Origin: Marixanthomonas ophiurae
Lineage (GTDB): Bacteria > Bacteroidota > Bacteroidia > Flavobacteriales > Flavobacteriaceae
Length of the DNA: 64,000 nucleotides
Direction of reading: 5' to 3'
Assembly (NCBI RefSeq): GCF_003413745.1
Contig: NZ_QVID01000001.1
Coordinates: 62,001 to 126,000, forward strand
The translations under genes and the position numbers were made by a program. The notes beneath the pieces were generated by a model that was given only the letters and a program-made list of their open reading frames with translations, did no database searches and was not told the origin of the DNA. Shown here in pieces: positions 3,475 through 10,484 of this stretch; within the stretch, counting starts at the first letter, position 1, and the number at the start of each line of letters is the position of its first letter.

Positions 3475-4302
3475 ATGAAAGCTATGAACCTCAACGAAAT
3501 TCCAAGACTAAAACATACCAACTCCAACAACTTTTTCCTTTTAGCCGGACCTTGTGCCATAGAAGGCGAAGATATGGCTCTTCGTATTGCTGAAAAAGTA
3601 GTTTCAATAACCAATAAGCTTGAAATTCCTTACATTTTTAAAGGCAGCTTTAAAAAAGCAAATAGAAGTAGAATTGATAGTTTTACTGGAATTGGTGATG
3701 AAAAAGCATTGAAAATACTTCGGAAAGTTTCTGAAACATTTGATGTTCCTACCGTTACTGACATACATGAAAATAGCGATGCAGCTATGGCTGCAGAGTT
3801 TGTTGATGTGTTACAAATACCAGCTTTTTTAGTACGTCAAACCGATTTAGTTGTAGCTGCGGCAAAGACAGGAAAAGTAGTCAACTTGAAAAAAGGACAG
3901 TTTATGAGTCCTGAAAGCATGCAACACGCAGCAAAAAAAGTTACCGATAGTGGTAATGAAAAAGTAATGATTACCGACCGTGGAACCATGTTTGGTTATC
4001 AAGATATGGTGGTAGACTTTAGAGGCATCCCAACTATGAAACAATATGCTTCTACTGTTCTAGACGTTACCCACAGCCTCCAACAACCCAATCAAAGTGT
4101 TGGCGTAACAGGTGGGCGACCAGAAATGATAAGTACTATTGCTAGAGCTGGAATTGCAACAGGAGTAGATGGATTATTTATTGAAACCCACTTTGATCCT
4201 GCCAATGCCAAAAGTGATGGCGCCAATATGCTGGATTTGTCAAAGCTTGAAAAATTATTGACTGATTTAGTTGCTATTCGAAAGACAATAAATGGATTGT
4301 AA
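3475..4302 (+). CDS. kdsA: 3-deoxy-8-phosphooctulonate synthase
   Basis: Condenses phosphoenolpyruvate with arabinose 5-phosphate to give KDO 8-phosphate, the first step of KDO synthesis for lipopolysaccharide. The 275 aa span the whole DAHP/KDO synthase barrel, with the AGPCAIEG start motif, KGSFKKANR and the GVTGGRPE region. Cys27 in AGPC is the residue that ligates metal in class II (metal-dependent) KDO8P synthases; the metal-free E. coli type has Asn there. A metal-dependent enzyme is therefore inferred. The start is ATG 3475; a second ATG at 3484 (MNLNEIP) is equally plausible given the promoter position. No other LPS genes adjoin it. A hairpin terminator follows at 4331. Confidence 0.96.
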   Translation: MKAMNLNEIPRLKHTNSNNFFLLAGPCAIEGEDMALRIAEKVVSITNKLEIPYIFKGSFKKANRSRIDSFTGIGDEKALKILRKVSETFDVPTVTDIHENSDAAMAAEFVDVLQIPAFLVRQTDLVVAAAKTGKVVNLKKGQFMSPESMQHAAKKVTDSGNEKVMITDRGTMFGYQDMVVDFRGIPTMKQYASTVLDVTHSLQQPNQSVGVTGGRPEMISTIARAGIATGVDGLFIETHFDPANAKSDGANMLDLSKLEKLLTDLVAIRKTINGL

Positions 4303-4330
4303 AGAATATTTTGAAAATTATTTAATTAAA

Positions 4331-4357
4331 AAAACCTGCCTTCTTCAAGCAGGTTTT
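4331..4357. terminator. Terminator after kdsA
   Basis: Perfect 9-bp arms AAAACCTGC (4331-4339) and GCAGGTTTT (4349-4357) around a 9-base loop, followed by T-rich sequence on the plus strand. Confidence 0.7.
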
Positions 4358-4404
4358 CCTTTTAAACTATATTATTTGGCTAAAAATAAATTATAAGTTT
4401 CTGA

Positions 4405-4475
4405 ATAAAAAAGGGCTGTCAACATAAAATTGGCAGCCCTTGTAATCGCTATTATTAACTCCCCAATTAATTAAG
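4405..4475 (-). ncRNA. Candidate small RNA, copy 1 of a tandem pair
   Basis: No protein is encoded here. Read on the minus strand, the interval has a -33 TTG (4512-4510), a 20-base spacer and a -7 box CATCTTTG (4489-4482), so transcription should start near 4475. The transcript would carry GCT, then AATTAATTGGGGAGTTAATA, then AGCGATTA. The middle can fold as ATTAA/TTAAT with GGGGAG in the loop, closed by GCT/AGC. It would end in a strong GC stem (4411-4422 with 4430-4441) followed by TTTTTT. The expected length is about 70 nt. The same arrangement recurs 160-170 bp away with a different terminator. Family unknown; transcription is inferred, not shown. Confidence 0.5.
4411..4441 (-). terminator. 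Terminator of small RNA copy 1
   Basis: AAGGGCTG (4411-4418) pairs with CAGCCCTT (4434-4441), and the stem extends inward by about 4 bp. On the minus strand it runs into TTTTTTATT (4412-4404). The polarity fits a minus-strand transcript. Confidence 0.65.
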
Positions 4476-4510
4476 CTATCACAAAGATGGCATGAAATAA
4501 GGTTCTAAAC

Positions 4511-4554
4511 AATAGGTAAAAACACCTAATTGATAGAGGGTTTTTCCTGTTTTT
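4511..4554 (-). promoter_or_regulatory. Paired boxes upstream of small RNA copy 1
   Basis: On the minus strand a box CAGGAAAAACCC begins at 4549, and a related box TAGGTGTTTTTACC begins at 4528, 21 bp further on. The second is also an inverted repeat TAGGT/ACCTA (4513-4517 and 4524-4528). They end at the -33 TTG. Copy 2 has the same design. This spacing is typical of LytTR-type regulators, but the sequences are not the classical LytTR consensus. Confidence 0.4.
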
Positions 4555-4567
4555 AAATAATTCAACG

Positions 4568-4646
4568 AAAAAAGACCACTCAAAAAAAGTGGTCTTTATA
4601 TATAATCGCTTTATTAACTCCCCAATTAATTTAGCATTGATTAATT
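4568..4646 (-). ncRNA. Candidate small RNA, copy 2 of a tandem pair
   Basis: Second unit of the tandem pair, minus strand. The -33 TTG is at 4683-4681, then exactly 20 bases, then -7 CATCTTTA (4660-4653), giving a start near 4646. The core AATTAATTGGGGAGTTAATA plus AGCGATTA is identical to copy 1, while the leader and the terminator stem differ completely. The terminator is AAAGACCACT paired with AGTGGTCTTT, followed by TTTTTTC. The only ATG inside opens a 3-codon frame, so a coding role is unlikely. Conservation of the core against divergent flanks is the main reason to think it is functional. Confidence 0.5.
4571..4598 (-). terminator. Terminator of small RNA copy 2
   Basis: Perfect 10-bp arms 4571-4580 and 4589-4598 with an 8-base loop. 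On the minus strand the stem is followed by TTTTTTC. Confidence 0.65.
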
Positions 4647-4685
4647 ATAAAGTAAAGATGCAACGATTTATTTTATCTTTCAAGG

Positions 4686-4726
4686 GGGTTTTTCCTGTTT
4701 TTGCACAGGGTTTCTCCTGTTTTGTG
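4686..4726. promoter_or_regulatory. Direct-repeat boxes between small RNA 2 and the DUF3857 genes
   Basis: GGGTTTTTCCTGTTTTT (4686-4702) and GGGTTTCTCCTGTTTTG (4708-4724) are direct repeats exactly 22 bp apart. They end at the -33 of small RNA 2 on one side and cover the expected -33 of the plus-strand promoter (-7 TATATTTG at 4742) on the other. One regulator could serve both directions. Confidence 0.45.
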
Positions 4727-4741
4727 TTTATTTCATTTTAG

Positions 4742-4771: not shown

Positions 4772-6736
4772 ATGAAATTAAAATTTATCGCTCCTCTTTT
4801 ATTTCTGTTCAGTATTAACTTTTCACAAGCACAACAACGTAAAACAGCAGAATTTGGAAACCCAACACGGTCAGAATTTTCACTTATTAAATACCAAAAA
4901 GATCCTACTGCAAATGGGGTTGTTCTTTTTGAAAGTGGGAAAAACTACGTAGAAATCGTTGATAATTATATTCGGCTAATAAAAGAAGTGCATCGCAAAA
5001 TAAAAGTATTCGATGCCAAGAACTTTAAACACGGTACTGTAGAAATCCCTTTTTATCATGATGGCGATGCCACTGAAAAGATTGCAAAACTTAAAGCGAT
5101 TACACATAATGATCAAGTTAAAACCTATGTAGCCGCCGATGCTTTTTATACCACAGATGAAACTCAAAATTGGTCACTCAAGAAATTTGCTTTTCCAAAT
5201 GTTAAAGATGGAAGTATTTTAGAATATACCTATAGAATAGAATCCCCTTATTTTTCAAATTTCGGTGGGTGGAACTTTCAAGGCCTCTTGCCTAAAATGT
5301 ACAGTGAATTTGAGTCTAAAATACCCGGTAATTACAATTATAACCGTACTTTATATGGAAATATGCAGCTCGACATCAATGAAGCCGAAGTGAAAAAACA
5401 TTGTTTTAACGTTCCCGGTTTTGAAATAGCGGCTGCTTGTGAAGTTGCAACATATGCCATGTTTGATGTTCCAGCTTTTAAAGAAGAAAAATACATGTTG
5501 GCTACAAAAAACTATACCGCCCGTTTAGATTTTGAATTAATGAAATATACCGACTTATCTGGTAGTACGGAAAAGTTTTCTAAAAGCTGGGACGATGTAG
5601 ACAAGCAATTTCGTTATGACAAAGATTTTGGTAGGCAACTTAAATACAGCAACTACTTTGAAGACAAACTGCCCACAACCGTACTCTCCATTAATGACAA
5701 AATGGAAAAAGCTAAAGCGGTGTATTATTTTATACAAAATCATTTTAACTGGAACGGCAATTACCGGGTTCGTTCAGACATTCGTGTAAAAGATGCTTTT
5801 GAAAAAAAGTCGGGCAATAATTCTGAAATTAACATAGCACTCCTAAATGCTATGGAAGCTGCTGGTTTAAAGGGTGATTTAGTGTTATTATCAACCCGGG
5901 GAAACGGACTTCCAACAACGGATTATCCGGTTATGACAGACTTTAATTTTACCATTGTCAAAATCAACGTTGACGATACTGATTATTTGCTGGATGCCAC
6001 TAATAAAAATACTCCTTTTGGGGTCTTGCCTTTTAGAGACTTAAATGTTCAAGGTCGGGTAATGAATTTTAAAAAAGGTAGTTATTGGCAACCCATTGTT
6101 CCTTTTTCCAAAAACGTTCATTATGTAAATACTCAAATAACGGCCAACAAGGGTGGAGTTTTTACTGGGGTTGTTAATGAAATCAATACAGGGTATATGG
6201 GCTGGCAAAAAAGGGAAGATTTGGAAAAGAATTCAAAAGAAGAATTCCTAAAGGAAAAACAGGTAAGGCTTTCTCAACTAGAATTATCTGACTATACCAT
6301 CGAAAACCAAAAAGAGCTTGAAGAACCATTCAAAGAAAGCTACTCCACTAAATTAGAAAAAAGTAACAGTGGAAAAATATTCCTGAACCCATTTTATATA
6401 GAAACTTATTTTACCGAAAACCCATTCAATCTTGAAGAACGAAACCACCCCATCGATTTTGGCTTTCCACTAACCAATACCTATTTAATTTCCATAGATT
6501 TAAACAATTTATACACTGTTGAGCAACTACCCACCAATACCGCTTTAAAACTCCCCAACGACGATGGTTCGGTATCGGTTGTTTATAGCAAAGGAGCAGG
6601 AAAAGTAACGATACGTTTAAATTTAAAGCTAAACAACCACTCATTCCCAGCTGAAGCGTATCAAGGATTAAAGGAATTTTTTGCCCAAGTGATGACCATC
6701 CAAAACCAACAACCTATTGTGTTGAAAAAGAAGTAA
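4772..6736 (+). CDS. DUF3857 / transglutaminase-like secreted protein, copy 1
   Basis: Exported 654-aa protein with a signal peptide ending SQA at about residue 20, an N-terminal DUF3857 beta domain (EVHRKIKVFDAKNF, DGSILEYTYRI) and a central transglutaminase-like core followed by a C-terminal beta domain. In the core the position of the catalytic Cys is occupied by the GNNSEIN sequence, and the usual His segment reads FNFTIVKINV; only the LLDATNK Asp region looks conserved. It is therefore probably a non-catalytic relative, as is common for this family in Bacteroidota. It is followed after 5 bases by a paralogue of the same length, so the two form an operon. Function unknown; a periplasmic or envelope location is inferred. 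Confidence 0.85.
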   Translation: MKLKFIAPLLFLFSINFSQAQQRKTAEFGNPTRSEFSLIKYQKDPTANGVVLFESGKNYVEIVDNYIRLIKEVHRKIKVFDAKNFKHGTVEIPFYHDGDATEKIAKLKAITHNDQVKTYVAADAFYTTDETQNWSLKKFAFPNVKDGSILEYTYRIESPYFSNFGGWNFQGLLPKMYSEFESKIPGNYNYNRTLYGNMQLDINEAEVKKHCFNVPGFEIAAACEVATYAMFDVPAFKEEKYMLATKNYTARLDFELMKYTDLSGSTEKFSKSWDDVDKQFRYDKDFGRQLKYSNYFEDKLPTTVLSINDKMEKAKAVYYFIQNHFNWNGNYRVRSDIRVKDAFEKKSGNNSEINIALLNAMEAAGLKGDLVLLSTRGNGLPTTDYPVMTDFNFTIVKINVDDTDYLLDATNKNTPFGVLPFRDLNVQGRVMNFKKGSYWQPIVPFSKNVHYVNTQITANKGGVFTGVVNEINTGYMGWQKREDLEKNSKEEFLKEKQVRLSQLELSDYTIENQKELEEPFKESYSTKLEKSNSGKIFLNPFYIETYFTENPFNLEERNHPIDFGFPLTNTYLISIDLNNLYTVEQLPTNTALKLPNDDGSVSVVYSKGAGKVTIRLNLKLNNHSFPAEAYQGLKEFFAQVMTIQNQQPIVLKKK

Positions 6737-6741
6737 AAAAC

Positions 6742-8706
6742 ATGAACAAAAAACGCTACTTCAGTTTTCTTTTTCTAGTATTAAATACCATGGTACTTTC
6801 TGCTCAAGAACGTCAAACGGCAGAGTTTGGCAAACCCACCGAAGAGGAGCTAAACTCATCATATAGCGAAAAATTTCCTGATGCCGCTGGTGTGGTGTTA
6901 TTTGAAAAAGGCGACACCCACTTTAAAGTTACTGAAGGCCAACTATTTATATTTAAGGAAGTTCATAAAAAAGTAAAGGTGTATAATGCTAAAAAATTCA
7001 CTTATGATATAGTCTCCATTCCACTACACAAAACCCATTATGACACCGAACTACTAACATCCCTTGTAGCTTATACACATAATGGTGAAGAACGATCTCA
7101 AGTGGAAGAGAAAAATATTCTAGAGGAACAAAAAGATAAAGAGGTGCTACTTAAAAAGTTTGTATTTCCCAACATAAAAGACGGTAGTGTACTCGAATAT
7201 CATTATGTTGTTAAATCGCCGTTTTATTTTCATGTAGATAGTTGGAACTTCCAAAACCTCCTTCCAACCTTGTATTCGGAATATAAAACCAAGGTACCTT
7301 CAAATCTAGTTTTTAGAAAAAAAATCATCGGAATGGAATATCTGGATTACAATGAAAGTTCCATACAAGAAAATTGTTTTTACATTCCAAACAGAGACCT
7401 CGGAAACTGTATTATAGACACTTTTATAATGAAGGATGTACCTGCTTTTAGGGAAGAAAGGTTTATGTTATCCCTTAAAAATTATGTGTCCAGAGTAATG
7501 TATTCGCTCGAAATTTATTTTAGTTTCTATGGTAAAAGAATAGATTACAGTACCACTTGGCAAGAGTATGATAAAAAGTTAGAAGAAAAGGACTGGTATA
7601 AAAAAAGAAAAATTTCCTATTCATTTTTTAAACGGAAAATTCCTAAAGATCTTCTTACTATTAGCGATAATTTAGAGAAAGCTAAAGCTATATTTTATTA
7701 TTTTCAAGAGCATTATACATGGAACAATTATGTGGGTGTAAATCCACGTGACATTACAGATGCATACAAGGATAAAGAGGGCACCCAATCACAAATAAAC
7801 CTATCCTTATATAACGGCTTAAAGGTTGCCGGGTTAAACCCAAGAATATTATTTTGCAGTAGCACTTACTATAGTGTTCCCGATGAAAAGGAACCGCTTT
7901 TCACAAATTTTAATTATTTATTGTTACAGATATTAATAGATGGTAAGGAGTACGTTCTTGATGCCTCTAGAAAAGAACTGCCCTTCGGTTTGATACCAAC
8001 ACAGGCTTTAAACCTCAAGGGACGAATTATAAACTTTAACACTGTAAATCATTGGACTCCTATACGCCCTTCTATTAATAGTCAACATACTGTAAGAGCA
8101 AAACTTACTGCAAATGAAAACGATACCTTTAAAGGAGAAATTTCAGAATCGCATAGTGGCTACCTAGCTTTAAAAGAGCGAGAAAGACTCAACGTAATGA
8201 GTATTAATAAATATAAGACAGAAAAAGAAACGTATTTTAAAAATTCGATTATCAATGATTTTAAAATTACGGACAGAGATAATAAAAAGATACCTATAAA
8301 ATTCTCTTATACTACAACTGTTGAAACTGAAAAGGCTGGAAAAAAGATAATTCTAAACCCCATATTTTTTGAAACTTTCTTAGATGAAAACCCTTTTAAA
8401 TTAGAAGATCGAACTTATGAGGTGTATATTGGCTACCCTTTAAGTAATACATACCTTATTACTATAAATTTAAACGATATATACAAAGTAGAACAATTAC
8501 CAAATAATACCCATTTAAAACTCCCTAATAACGACGGCGCAATTTCTGTTATTTACAATGCTACTCAAGAAACAATAAATATTCGTCTAAACTTAACACT
8601 CAATAAACATCAATTTCCAGCAGAAGCATATCAAGGTTTGAAGGAGTTTTTTTCGCAACTAATGACGATTCAAAACCAACAGCCTATTATATTGAAAAAA
8701 AAGTAA
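6742..8706 (+). CDS. DUF3857 / transglutaminase-like secreted protein, copy 2
   Basis: Tandem paralogue of the upstream gene with the same length (654 aa) and domain order. It has a signal peptide (MNKKRYFSF... LSAQ), DUF3857 (EVHKKVKVYNAKKF, DGSVLEYHYVV) and a degenerate transglutaminase-like core with GTQSQIN where a catalytic Cys would be expected. Identity to copy 1 is moderate overall but very high at the C-terminus: both share AEAYQGLKEFF and MTIQNQQPI and end LKKK. That pattern suggests constraint or gene conversion at the 3' end. It is translated from the same message as copy 1. Its stop lies 6 bases from the stop of the convergent dehydrogenase gene, with no terminator between. Confidence 0.85.
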   Translation: MNKKRYFSFLFLVLNTMVLSAQERQTAEFGKPTEEELNSSYSEKFPDAAGVVLFEKGDTHFKVTEGQLFIFKEVHKKVKVYNAKKFTYDIVSIPLHKTHYDTELLTSLVAYTHNGEERSQVEEKNILEEQKDKEVLLKKFVFPNIKDGSVLEYHYVVKSPFYFHVDSWNFQNLLPTLYSEYKTKVPSNLVFRKKIIGMEYLDYNESSIQENCFYIPNRDLGNCIIDTFIMKDVPAFREERFMLSLKNYVSRVMYSLEIYFSFYGKRIDYSTTWQEYDKKLEEKDWYKKRKISYSFFKRKIPKDLLTISDNLEKAKAIFYYFQEHYTWNNYVGVNPRDITDAYKDKEGTQSQINLSLYNGLKVAGLNPRILFCSSTYYSVPDEKEPLFTNFNYLLLQILIDGKEYVLDASRKELPFGLIPTQALNLKGRIINFNTVNHWTPIRPSINSQHTVRAKLTANENDTFKGEISESHSGYLALKERERLNVMSINKYKTEKETYFKNSIINDFKITDRDNKKIPIKFSYTTTVETEKAGKKIILNPIFFETFLDENPFKLEDRTYEVYIGYPLSNTYLITINLNDIYKVEQLPNNTHLKLPNNDGAISVIYNATQETINIRLNLTLNKHQFPAEAYQGLKEFFSQLMTIQNQQPIILKKK

Positions 8707-8712
8707 AAAATA

Positions 8713-9927
8713 TTACTCTTTTCCATCTACATAATCCTGTAAATAACCAAAGTTTTTAGTCAATTTGCCTTCACTAGTTGTCATCTTGGCTCGTGCTAAA
8801 ATACCATCTTTATCACCGTTGAAAAAAGCAGGAATGACACTTTCCAAAAACATCTCTCCAAAGCCTTCACTGGCGTTTTTGGGTAGTTCGCAAGGCAAAT
8901 TATCCACGGCCATTACAGTAATCGAACCAGGAATATCGTAAAAAGTTTCTTTTTCGGTGACAGGGTCATACCCATAAAACGGATCTTCAATGGTTGAAGG
9001 TCGTATGGTACTAGCCACAGGGCCATCGATATCGCACGATACATCGGCTACCAAATTAATATTGAAGTGTGGATGGCGGGCATCCTCTCGAGTAAATAGA
9101 TAAGGCGCTCCCTCTCCGTGAAAATGACCGGCGATAAAGAAATCGCTCACTGTAGCAAATCGCATAAAGTCACTTTCGTAGCCCGAAGGATTGTTGTAAA
9201 ATTCACGCTTATTACTAGGCAAACCATCTGTGCGTTTGTTGTAATCCAATACATCGATCATGCAATACACCGGCTGGTCAAAATCCTTAGTAAGGTAATC
9301 GGTAACGTTTACTTTTTTTATGTTTAAATAATCCAGAATTTCTTTAGCACCGTAAGCCACTTTCCCACTTCCGCTAAGCAGGATTTTGATGGTTGGTACT
9401 TTAATTTTGTCTAATTCTTCCTTAACAGCATCTAAATCGGGTAAGACATCTACTTTTTCCAAGTTAAACAACTTATCACGTAACCCTAAAGCTCTAAAGC
9501 CATTGTAAGCGCCTACTAATCCTGCATAACGCCCAAATCCAATTAAGCGACTCCCATTTTTTTTGGTAATAGTTTCGTGATCGTATAACTCTATGCTTTT
9601 CTGAAGAACAGCCTGTAACAACTCACGGTTATAAGGTTGTTTTTTTATTGTATGGCTAAAAAAGAAATATTTTTTGTTAGGTATTAATGCCTCTACTGGT
9701 ACTTCTTTCACGCCCAAGAGCACGTCAGCTTTTGAAATATCTTCTTGTACTTCTACGTCTGCTTTTCTATATGCTTTATCATGAAAAATTCGAATATCAG
9801 ATGTTTCAGCTATAATACGAGCGTCTGGGTATTGTTTTATGACTTCTTGACACATTATTGGTGAAAAAACGACACGACGGTCGGGTGGATTTTTACGTTC
9901 TTTGATAAGTGCAAAGGTTATTGCCAT
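8713..9927 (-). CDS. Saccharopine/alanine dehydrogenase-like NAD(P)-dependent oxidoreductase
   Basis: Resembles the Lys1 (lysine-forming saccharopine dehydrogenase) and alanine dehydrogenase/transhydrogenase N-terminal family. Visible parts are the N-terminal ALIKERKNPPDRRVVFSP segment, a nucleotide-binding glycine motif GSGKVAYGAKEIL, and a C-terminal catalytic half rich in His/Asp (AGHFHGEGAP, ADVSCDIDGP). The start is set at ATG 9927 (MAITFALIKERK), giving 404 aa. The open frame continues upstream another 78 codons, but that stretch lies antisense to tmRNA and does not look like protein. A -7 TATCTTTG is at 9990-9983 on the minus strand. The substrate is not certain; saccharopine is the best guess from family resemblance. 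Confidence 0.8.
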   Translation of the reverse strand: MAITFALIKERKNPPDRRVVFSPIMCQEVIKQYPDARIIAETSDIRIFHDKAYRKADVEVQEDISKADVLLGVKEVPVEALIPNKKYFFFSHTIKKQPYNRELLQAVLQKSIELYDHETITKKNGSRLIGFGRYAGLVGAYNGFRALGLRDKLFNLEKVDVLPDLDAVKEELDKIKVPTIKILLSGSGKVAYGAKEILDYLNIKKVNVTDYLTKDFDQPVYCMIDVLDYNKRTDGLPSNKREFYNNPSGYESDFMRFATVSDFFIAGHFHGEGAPYLFTREDARHPHFNINLVADVSCDIDGPVASTIRPSTIEDPFYGYDPVTEKETFYDIPGSITVMAVDNLPCELPKNASEGFGEMFLESVIPAFFNGDKDGILARAKMTTSEGKLTKNFGYLQDYVDGKE

Positions 9928-10076
9928 ATGGAATGCTTTTTGTATAATTATAATTGTCTTTTCATTTTTGAACAGACAGCTCCAAAGATATGGATTTTCA
10001 TGTATCTTTGTTAGTTCGTAGCTAGTAGAATGTGATTGTAAATTACTACATACTGGCAACAGTTTATTACAAAAAA
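9928..10076. promoter_or_regulatory. Divergent promoter region between dehydrogenase gene and ssrA
   Basis: Two perfect TATCTTTG boxes face away from each other: minus strand 9990-9983 for the dehydrogenase, plus strand 10003-10010 for ssrA. Neither has an obvious -33 TTTG at 20 bp. The plus box lies 66 bases before the mature tmRNA 5' end, which implies a processed leader or another start. Confidence 0.5.
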
Positions 10077-10473
10077 GGGGCCGACTGGTTTTGACAGCGG
10101 GTCTTATTGTATTGTAAGCATGCCGAGCGCCGGGACACAGCTCGTAAATATCATGTTTCAAACTTTTTTAAACGGCGAGAATAACTACGCCCTAGCAGCA
10201 TAATCTGAATTATAGTAGGATATGCCTCGGCCCGTAAGACGGGCATGCAGGAAGTCACTCAAAGGCCTTGGTTTGCGGCGTTTGACTTAGTGGCTTCGTA
10301 AAAGTAAACCTAGCTTGTGTAGGGCTTTGATGCACTTGCGAAATTTAAGCGAAGATAAGGAGTGCGTTGGTAGTTTCCGACCGGCAAGCTCACGAAAATT
10401 CAAATGGAAACTAAGCATGTAGAAAGCAGTATAATTGCGCGTTTGGACGGGAGTTCGAATCTCCCCGGCTCCA
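10077..10473 (+). ncRNA. ssrA: tmRNA
   Basis: One-piece transfer-messenger RNA of about 397 nt. The 5' end GGGGCCG pairs with CGGCTCC near the 3' end to make the acceptor stem, including a G-U pair. The T-arm sequence GGGAGTTCGAATCTCCC is at 10449-10465. The 3' encoded end is the A at 10473, and CCA is not encoded (CTA follows). The tag frame GGC GAG AAT AAC TAC GCC CTA GCA GCA TAA (10174-10203) encodes GENNYALAA. The RNA rescues stalled ribosomes together with SmpB. Pseudoknot-like GC stems lie between tag and 3' domain. Confidence 0.97.
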
Positions 10474-10484
10474 CTAATATAAAC

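Follow-up and report, generated by a model that had tools for sequence, protein, structure and literature searches.

Two tandem units with a shared promoter and core

The minus strand at 4405–4730 of the window (the whole 64-kb stretch of DNA analysed here) carries two tandem units, in each of which upstream boxes, a promoter, an identical 20-base core and a terminator follow one another in the same order. What do these units encode, and on what would their products act? The original prediction proposed a duplicated regulatory RNA, and sequence analysis bore this out: there is very little doubt that the small RNA (sRNA) family to which the units belong is real and that each unit is an RNA gene. 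The window contains exactly two copies of the core, AATTAATTGGGGAGTTAATA (4453–4472 and 4612–4631, both on the minus strand), against a mean of 0.02 matches in shuffled sequence, and the unit-to-unit repeat distance is 159 bp. Elsewhere in the 3.3-Mb genome, the nearest core-like places have one mismatch over 16 bases, and one of these is a candidate target. No reading frame of at least 60 amino acids covers the 4405–4730 stretch.

Both units have a promoter of the Bacteroidota type, TTG-N20-CATCTTTG/A. The proposed succession of a TTG, exactly 20 bases and a box was recovered without deviation as TTG-N20-CATCTTT(A/G), at 4683–4681/4660–4653 in unit 1 and at 4512–4510/4489–4482 in unit 2. The identical promoter spacing is therefore exact, and can be refined to that of an ordinary Bacteroidota primary-sigma promoter; in F. 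psychrophilum, the primary-sigma element is TAnnTTTG at −12 to −5 (PMC9723704).

Unit 1 (all features on the minus strand) begins with a distal box ACAGGAGAAACCC, a GG-N5-CC dyad found at the same position in relatives (4708–4720). A proximal box ACAGGAAAAACCC follows 22 bp away (4686–4698) and adjoins the −33 element, a TTG (4681–4683; CTTG is kept in alignments) that lies 20 bases 5' of the Bacteroidota-type −7 element CATCTTTA (4653–4660), which is comparable to the F. psychrophilum consensus. The predicted sRNA of ~82 nt (4567–4648), its start taken from the promoter and its end from the T run, has a 5' leader 12 nt longer than that of unit 2. It contains a GGGG-loop hairpin (4613–4635, loop 4620–4623; folding and covariation), whose outer stem is closed by a downstream AGC, and an intrinsic terminator stem-loop followed by a T run, located by a terminator scan (4571–4597).

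Unit 2, also on the minus strand, has a sole CAGG box, the distal ACAGGAAAAACCC (CAGGAAAAACCC, 4538–4550), and, 21 bp from it, a diverged proximal dyad TAGGTGTTTTTACCTA (4513–4528) that is present in relatives L008 and L011. Paired boxes 21–22 bp apart had been proposed for both units; the proposal stood for unit 1, with its two CAGG boxes, and is corrected for unit 2, whose second box is the diverged dyad. The −33 TTG lies at 4510–4512 and the −7 element CATCTTTG at 4482–4489. With CATCTTTG aligned to the −12 to −5 element, unit 2 would start at ~4477, so that an RNA made from this ordinary primary-sigma promoter would open with the GGGG hairpin. The predicted sRNA of ~70 nt (4407–4477; promoter and folding) thus has at its start the hairpin GCUUAAUUAAUU-GGGG-AGUUAAUAAUAGC (4448–4476, loop 4461–4464; folding and covariation), our proposed seed. 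A terminator stem-loop and T run follow (~4407–4440), which folding reveals and which the terminator scan missed because the stem is interrupted; a terminator with a T run, as foreseen, is accordingly present in each unit. The starts and ends of both RNAs are predictions. Their folding z-scores against shuffles are −4.99 (unit 1) and −3.59 (unit 2).

Distribution of the family in Flavobacteriaceae

Conservation of the core outside this locus had been named in advance as the deciding point, and exact and covariance-model searches recovered it in at least 12 genera. An exact 22-base search returned 11 further stretches in named Flavobacteriaceae records (Ulvibacter, Cochleicola, Thermobacterium, Luteirhabdus and MAGs), all of the same anatomy and with up to four tandem copies. 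With a covariance model, the family was detected in at least 21 of 400 Flavobacteriaceae genomes and at least 12 of 237 genera, counts that are lower bounds since only 10 candidates per genome were scored; there are one to four or more copies per genome. The family is thus kept in many marine members of the Flavobacteriaceae. A second model, applied to 36 selected genomes, retrieved divergent members, including a long three-hairpin form (~113–130 nt) in seven more genomes, which has an extra 5' hairpin ahead of the GGGG hairpin and the same boxes upstream. An own promoter and an intrinsic terminator, with no protein coded, were found in relatives as in this window.

Most arrays adjoin kdsA, DUF1801, an HTH_34-CreD cluster or ald, a shared neighbourhood that makes the locus orthologous. 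Here the conserved neighbour is kdsA (KDO-8-phosphate synthase; 3475–4302, plus strand), and a bidirectional terminator-like hairpin lies at 4324–4359, between kdsA and the converging sRNA array. The HTH_34-CreD cluster is absent beside the array in this window; the position it has in relatives is taken here by two tandem related DUF3857/DUF3858-type genes (4772–8706, plus strand).

The family had been said to match no named one, and this holds for Rfam 15: there was no match above threshold, and a search at gathering and loose thresholds identified only a tmRNA elsewhere in the window. Weak matches at the loose thresholds were to unrelated, low-complexity terminators and were rejected. Text searches of the literature for the box and the core returned nothing relevant. 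The family, absent from Rfam 15, is new but, judging by its sequences, would be of a known kind, the base-pairing sRNAs. The alanine-dehydrogenase frame (8713–10161, minus strand) runs at its 5' end into the tmRNA gene (10077–10476, plus strand; tag GENNYALAA), and the true ald start is probably an internal ATG at MAITFALIKERK.

A varying stem around a fixed GGGG loop

The core had been described as a repeated sequence, which it is; comparison with relatives refines this, as compensatory changes alter the stem around a constant GGGG loop. Across 42 aligned units, standard pairs filled 97% of the pair cells, and four pairs had changed on both sides, compared with 1.1 in shuffles; in slid controls of the alignment the paired share fell to 24–57%. 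Although the alignment had been fitted to the model, stems rebuilt around the fixed loop can also be seen in the raw sequence (GGTTTAATTAGCT-GGGG-AGTTGATTAAACC, TTTCAATT-GGGG-AGTTGATA and TATAAATT-GGGG-AGTTTATA). Among the varied hairpins the second stem pair is U-G, C-G or U-A, while the GGGG loop and the AGUU that opens the 3' arm are both nearly invariant. Across the family as a whole, UUGGGGAGUU or UCGGGGAGUU is nearly invariant.

Candidate targets with start-proximal CCCC

We searched for sites complementary to the core with its reverse complement TTAACTCCCCAATTAATTAA as the query (up to three mismatches, arrays excluded) in 17 genomes with the sRNA and 17 without. Sites were counted as sense-leader sites if they lay, in sense orientation, at an ATG or up to 60 nt upstream of it. 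Nine of the 31 sites in sRNA-positive genomes fell in sense leaders versus none of the 19 in sRNA-negative genomes (one-sided p = 0.008, in Fisher tests that treat related genomes as independent and so overstate independence); antisense leaders held one of the 31. The leaders matched are those of a PAS histidine kinase, an FG-GAP T9SS protein, an M43 metallopeptidase, an outer-membrane beta-barrel protein, a polysaccharide-synthesis protein and a lipoprotein. For TAACTCCCC, sites in two sister species were mostly antisense or coding, with no orthologue in common. At positions −25 to −1 of 280 sampled genes, CCCC was present in seven and GGGG in one.

The PAS histidine-kinase leader of this genome, with TTAACTCCCCAATTtAgTAAGCTA directly before the ATG, gave a predicted duplex of −28.6 kcal/mol, ranked first among 213 sampled leaders; a receiver-only gene comes after the kinase. 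CCCC was found in the kinase leaders of all four sRNA-positive orthologues (this genome, G281, G064 and G039) versus one of 24 sRNA-negative orthologues, many of which have uncertain start codons, or one of six if only the closest orthologues with clear starts are counted. The kinase duplexes of the three other genomes (G281, G064 and G039; −14.7 to −15.8 kcal/mol) were not above background, and a kinase orthologue is absent in the closest species (G055 and G276).

Neither Pfam nor NCBIfam has a match for the lipoprotein, which occurs in 132 of the 400 genomes. Of 28 sRNA-positive genomes, 24 have CCCC no more than 25 nt from the lipoprotein ATG; of 25 without detected sRNA, 7 do (p = 2 × 10–5), the 25-nt window having been chosen after the first leaders were inspected; five of the genomes without detected sRNA were screened by the less sensitive first model only, and four further leaders were unreadable. 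Counted by genus, the figures are 14 of 16 versus 5 of 18 (p = 6 × 10–4); relatedness among the genomes qualifies these p values as well. Most of these motifs (27 of 31) are CCCCA, the complement of UGGGG. The sRNA is present without a lipoprotein CCCC in G361, G190, G315 and G289. In several genomes, the CCCC leader was seen first and a long-form sRNA discovered afterwards, which counts as a prediction come true.

The lipoprotein leaders (G000:C1:202067–202609, minus strand; orthologues L256–L292 and L309–L328) also carry a CGTT(A) box, similar to an ECF-sigma −10 element, ~10–20 nt before CCCC. The same CGTT(A)-CCCC layout, CGTTATTTTTGCCCCAATG, is seen at an Ig-like lipoprotein (L136:3872).

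The sRNA family could be real and the CCCC leaders not its targets; the motif would then be conserved because transcription start, or translation of mRNAs with short leaders, needs it, and common ancestry would explain the correlation with the sRNA. The ECF-like CGTT(A) box shared by the lipoprotein leaders would place CCCC near the likely mRNA 5' end, and seven genomes without detected sRNA have a CCCC lipoprotein leader. However, sRNA-negative orthologues that lack CCCC keep the CGTT box (G131, G243 and G395), unrelated genes have sense-leader anti-core sites in sRNA-positive genomes only, and the kinase leader of this genome is complementary to nearly the whole hairpin. We consider this explanation unlikely, though deserving of some weight.

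Proposed mechanism and comparison with known sRNAs

Our preferred reading, which the sequences make reasonably probable, is a trans-acting antisense sRNA whose GGGG seed acts on start-proximal CCCC. Each unit would be an independently transcribed sRNA gene of a Flavobacteriaceae family, its RNA (~70–82 nt; ~113–130 nt in the long form) exposing a GGGG-loop hairpin. Acting in trans, the RNA would use its UGGGG(A) loop to begin pairing with (U)CCCCA located no further than ~25 nt ahead of a start codon; opening of the AU-rich stem could then lengthen the duplex, and translation initiation would be blocked. The seed, at 4–5 nt, is short. The likeliest targets would be envelope or surface functions, namely the clade-conserved lipoprotein, the PAS histidine kinase and secreted or outer-membrane proteins. 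At the sequence level the seed is conserved and unpaired, and complementary sites lie near the start codons of unlinked mRNAs, as in trans-acting base-pairing sRNAs; the earlier suggestion that the GGGGAG loop could bind a target is upheld to the extent that sequence comparison allows.

A broader reading is put forward more tentatively, as somewhat less likely than not: the family, in its short two-hairpin and long three-hairpin forms, might control an envelope regulon in which a G-rich loop recognises CCCCA beside start codons, some targets having short leaders behind ECF-like promoters. Such an arrangement would mirror the Firmicutes C-rich loops on Shine-Dalgarno sites, fitted to mRNAs that lack these sites. 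Surface lipoprotein output would in that case depend on a single sigma factor together with a single sRNA family. Very few base-pairing sRNAs are known in the phylum outside Bacteroides, and the family bears on how an sRNA can stop translation in bacteria that mostly lack Shine-Dalgarno sites. It offers a concrete seed and a candidate target with a 4–5-nt site, both conserved; genomes that have the sRNA and genomes that do not occur in nature, which opens the question to point mutations in a laboratory strain.

By analogy, the family may work like other tandem base-pairing sRNAs. LhrC1-5 of Listeria monocytogenes are tandem sRNA copies with a stress-regulator promoter, whose loop motif acts on the translation start regions of envelope mRNAs. 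The tandem copies and the loop motif (here with predicted targets) are shared, although LhrC belongs to a different phylum and we claim no kinship in sequence. LhrC uses C-rich loops on a G-rich Shine-Dalgarno sequence, whereas here a G-rich loop would meet a C-rich leader, in a bacterial group mostly without Shine-Dalgarno sites.

Closer in phylogeny are FopS/GibS of Bacteroides thetaiotaomicron, which are likewise short Bacteroidota sRNAs in multiple paralogous copies, with a terminator and a seed that is conserved among them; FopS has a primary-sigma promoter and acts on a start-proximal envelope mRNA (PMC11697453). In FopS, however, the 5' seed is single-stranded, the copies number 14 and Rfam has an entry, in contrast to the hairpin-loop seed, tandem copies and lack of an Rfam match here. 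Membership in FopS was rejected, as there is no Rfam match and the 5' end folds as a hairpin.

Rfp18 of F. psychrophilum, an sRNA conserved in Flavobacterium, is reported to have three or more stem-loops, a single one of which pairs with every predicted target, metalloproteases included (PMC9723704). Compared by description, it resembles the present family in being conserved within the Flavobacteriaceae, in having several stem-loops and in its predicted secreted-protein targets, and the family might be the marine counterpart of this known regulator of metalloproteases and an adhesin. The long form has three stem-loops, and one anti-core site precedes an M43 metallopeptidase. Yet the text of PMC9723704 has no GGGG or LytT term, and deletion of Rfp18 lowered, rather than raised, its target mRNAs. 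We regard such a correspondence as improbable.

Another way to account for a fixed loop on a varying stem is that the RNAs are protein-binding decoys, in which GGA-loop hairpins sequester an RNA-binding protein in the way that CsrB or RsmY/Z titrate CsrA. The hairpin presents GGA in its loop UUGGGGAG, several copies make up the array, and GGGGAGUU persists while the stem varies. There is, however, just one GGA hairpin per RNA, where decoys of the CsrB/RsmY type have several, and CsrA as partner; loop-complementary sites are enriched in sense leaders; and what the lipoprotein leader keeps is CCCCA, not GGA. To our knowledge, CsrA is rare in Bacteroidota, and we give the decoy explanation a low probability. 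That the locus is a cis-acting element or a DNA repeat, as a tandem repeat in an intergenic region might suggest, is very improbable, given that every copy has retained a promoter with constant spacing, together with a terminator of its own that differs between copies, that the stem covaries, and that the downstream genes differ among genomes.

Upstream boxes

The preferred antisense-sRNA reading includes a regulator that would bind the two GG-N5-CC dyads, 21–22 bp apart and adjoining the −33 element, beside the primary-sigma promoter, presumably in response to a signal. Regulatory RNAs of the Qrr, VR-RNA and RNAIII type are driven by two-component regulators, and the putative activator boxes just upstream of the promoter are reminiscent of them, but the boxes here are GG-N5-CC dyads and not the LytTR consensus. 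The spacing of 21–22 bp fits a pair of direct 9-bp LytTR sites separated by 12 bp, yet the boxes are inverted repeats, and no link emerged between the array and any of the six LytTR genes in the genome. LytTR direct repeats were therefore rejected as the box type.

Other exact CAGGAAAAACC boxes in the genome are nearly all in coding DNA; one, at G000:C1:494773, is described below. A similar dyad box and promoter precede an M19-peptidase-like gene (M.THYVD.HCHPSLK) in two genomes (L300, 1501–1577; L308, ~1501–1572), and the dyad boxes may mark a small regulon that includes this gene. At G000:C1:494773 (minus strand; L023), a CAGGAAAAACCCC box and a second GGGGGATAAAAC box lie before a secreted-protein gene, with a different promoter spacing.
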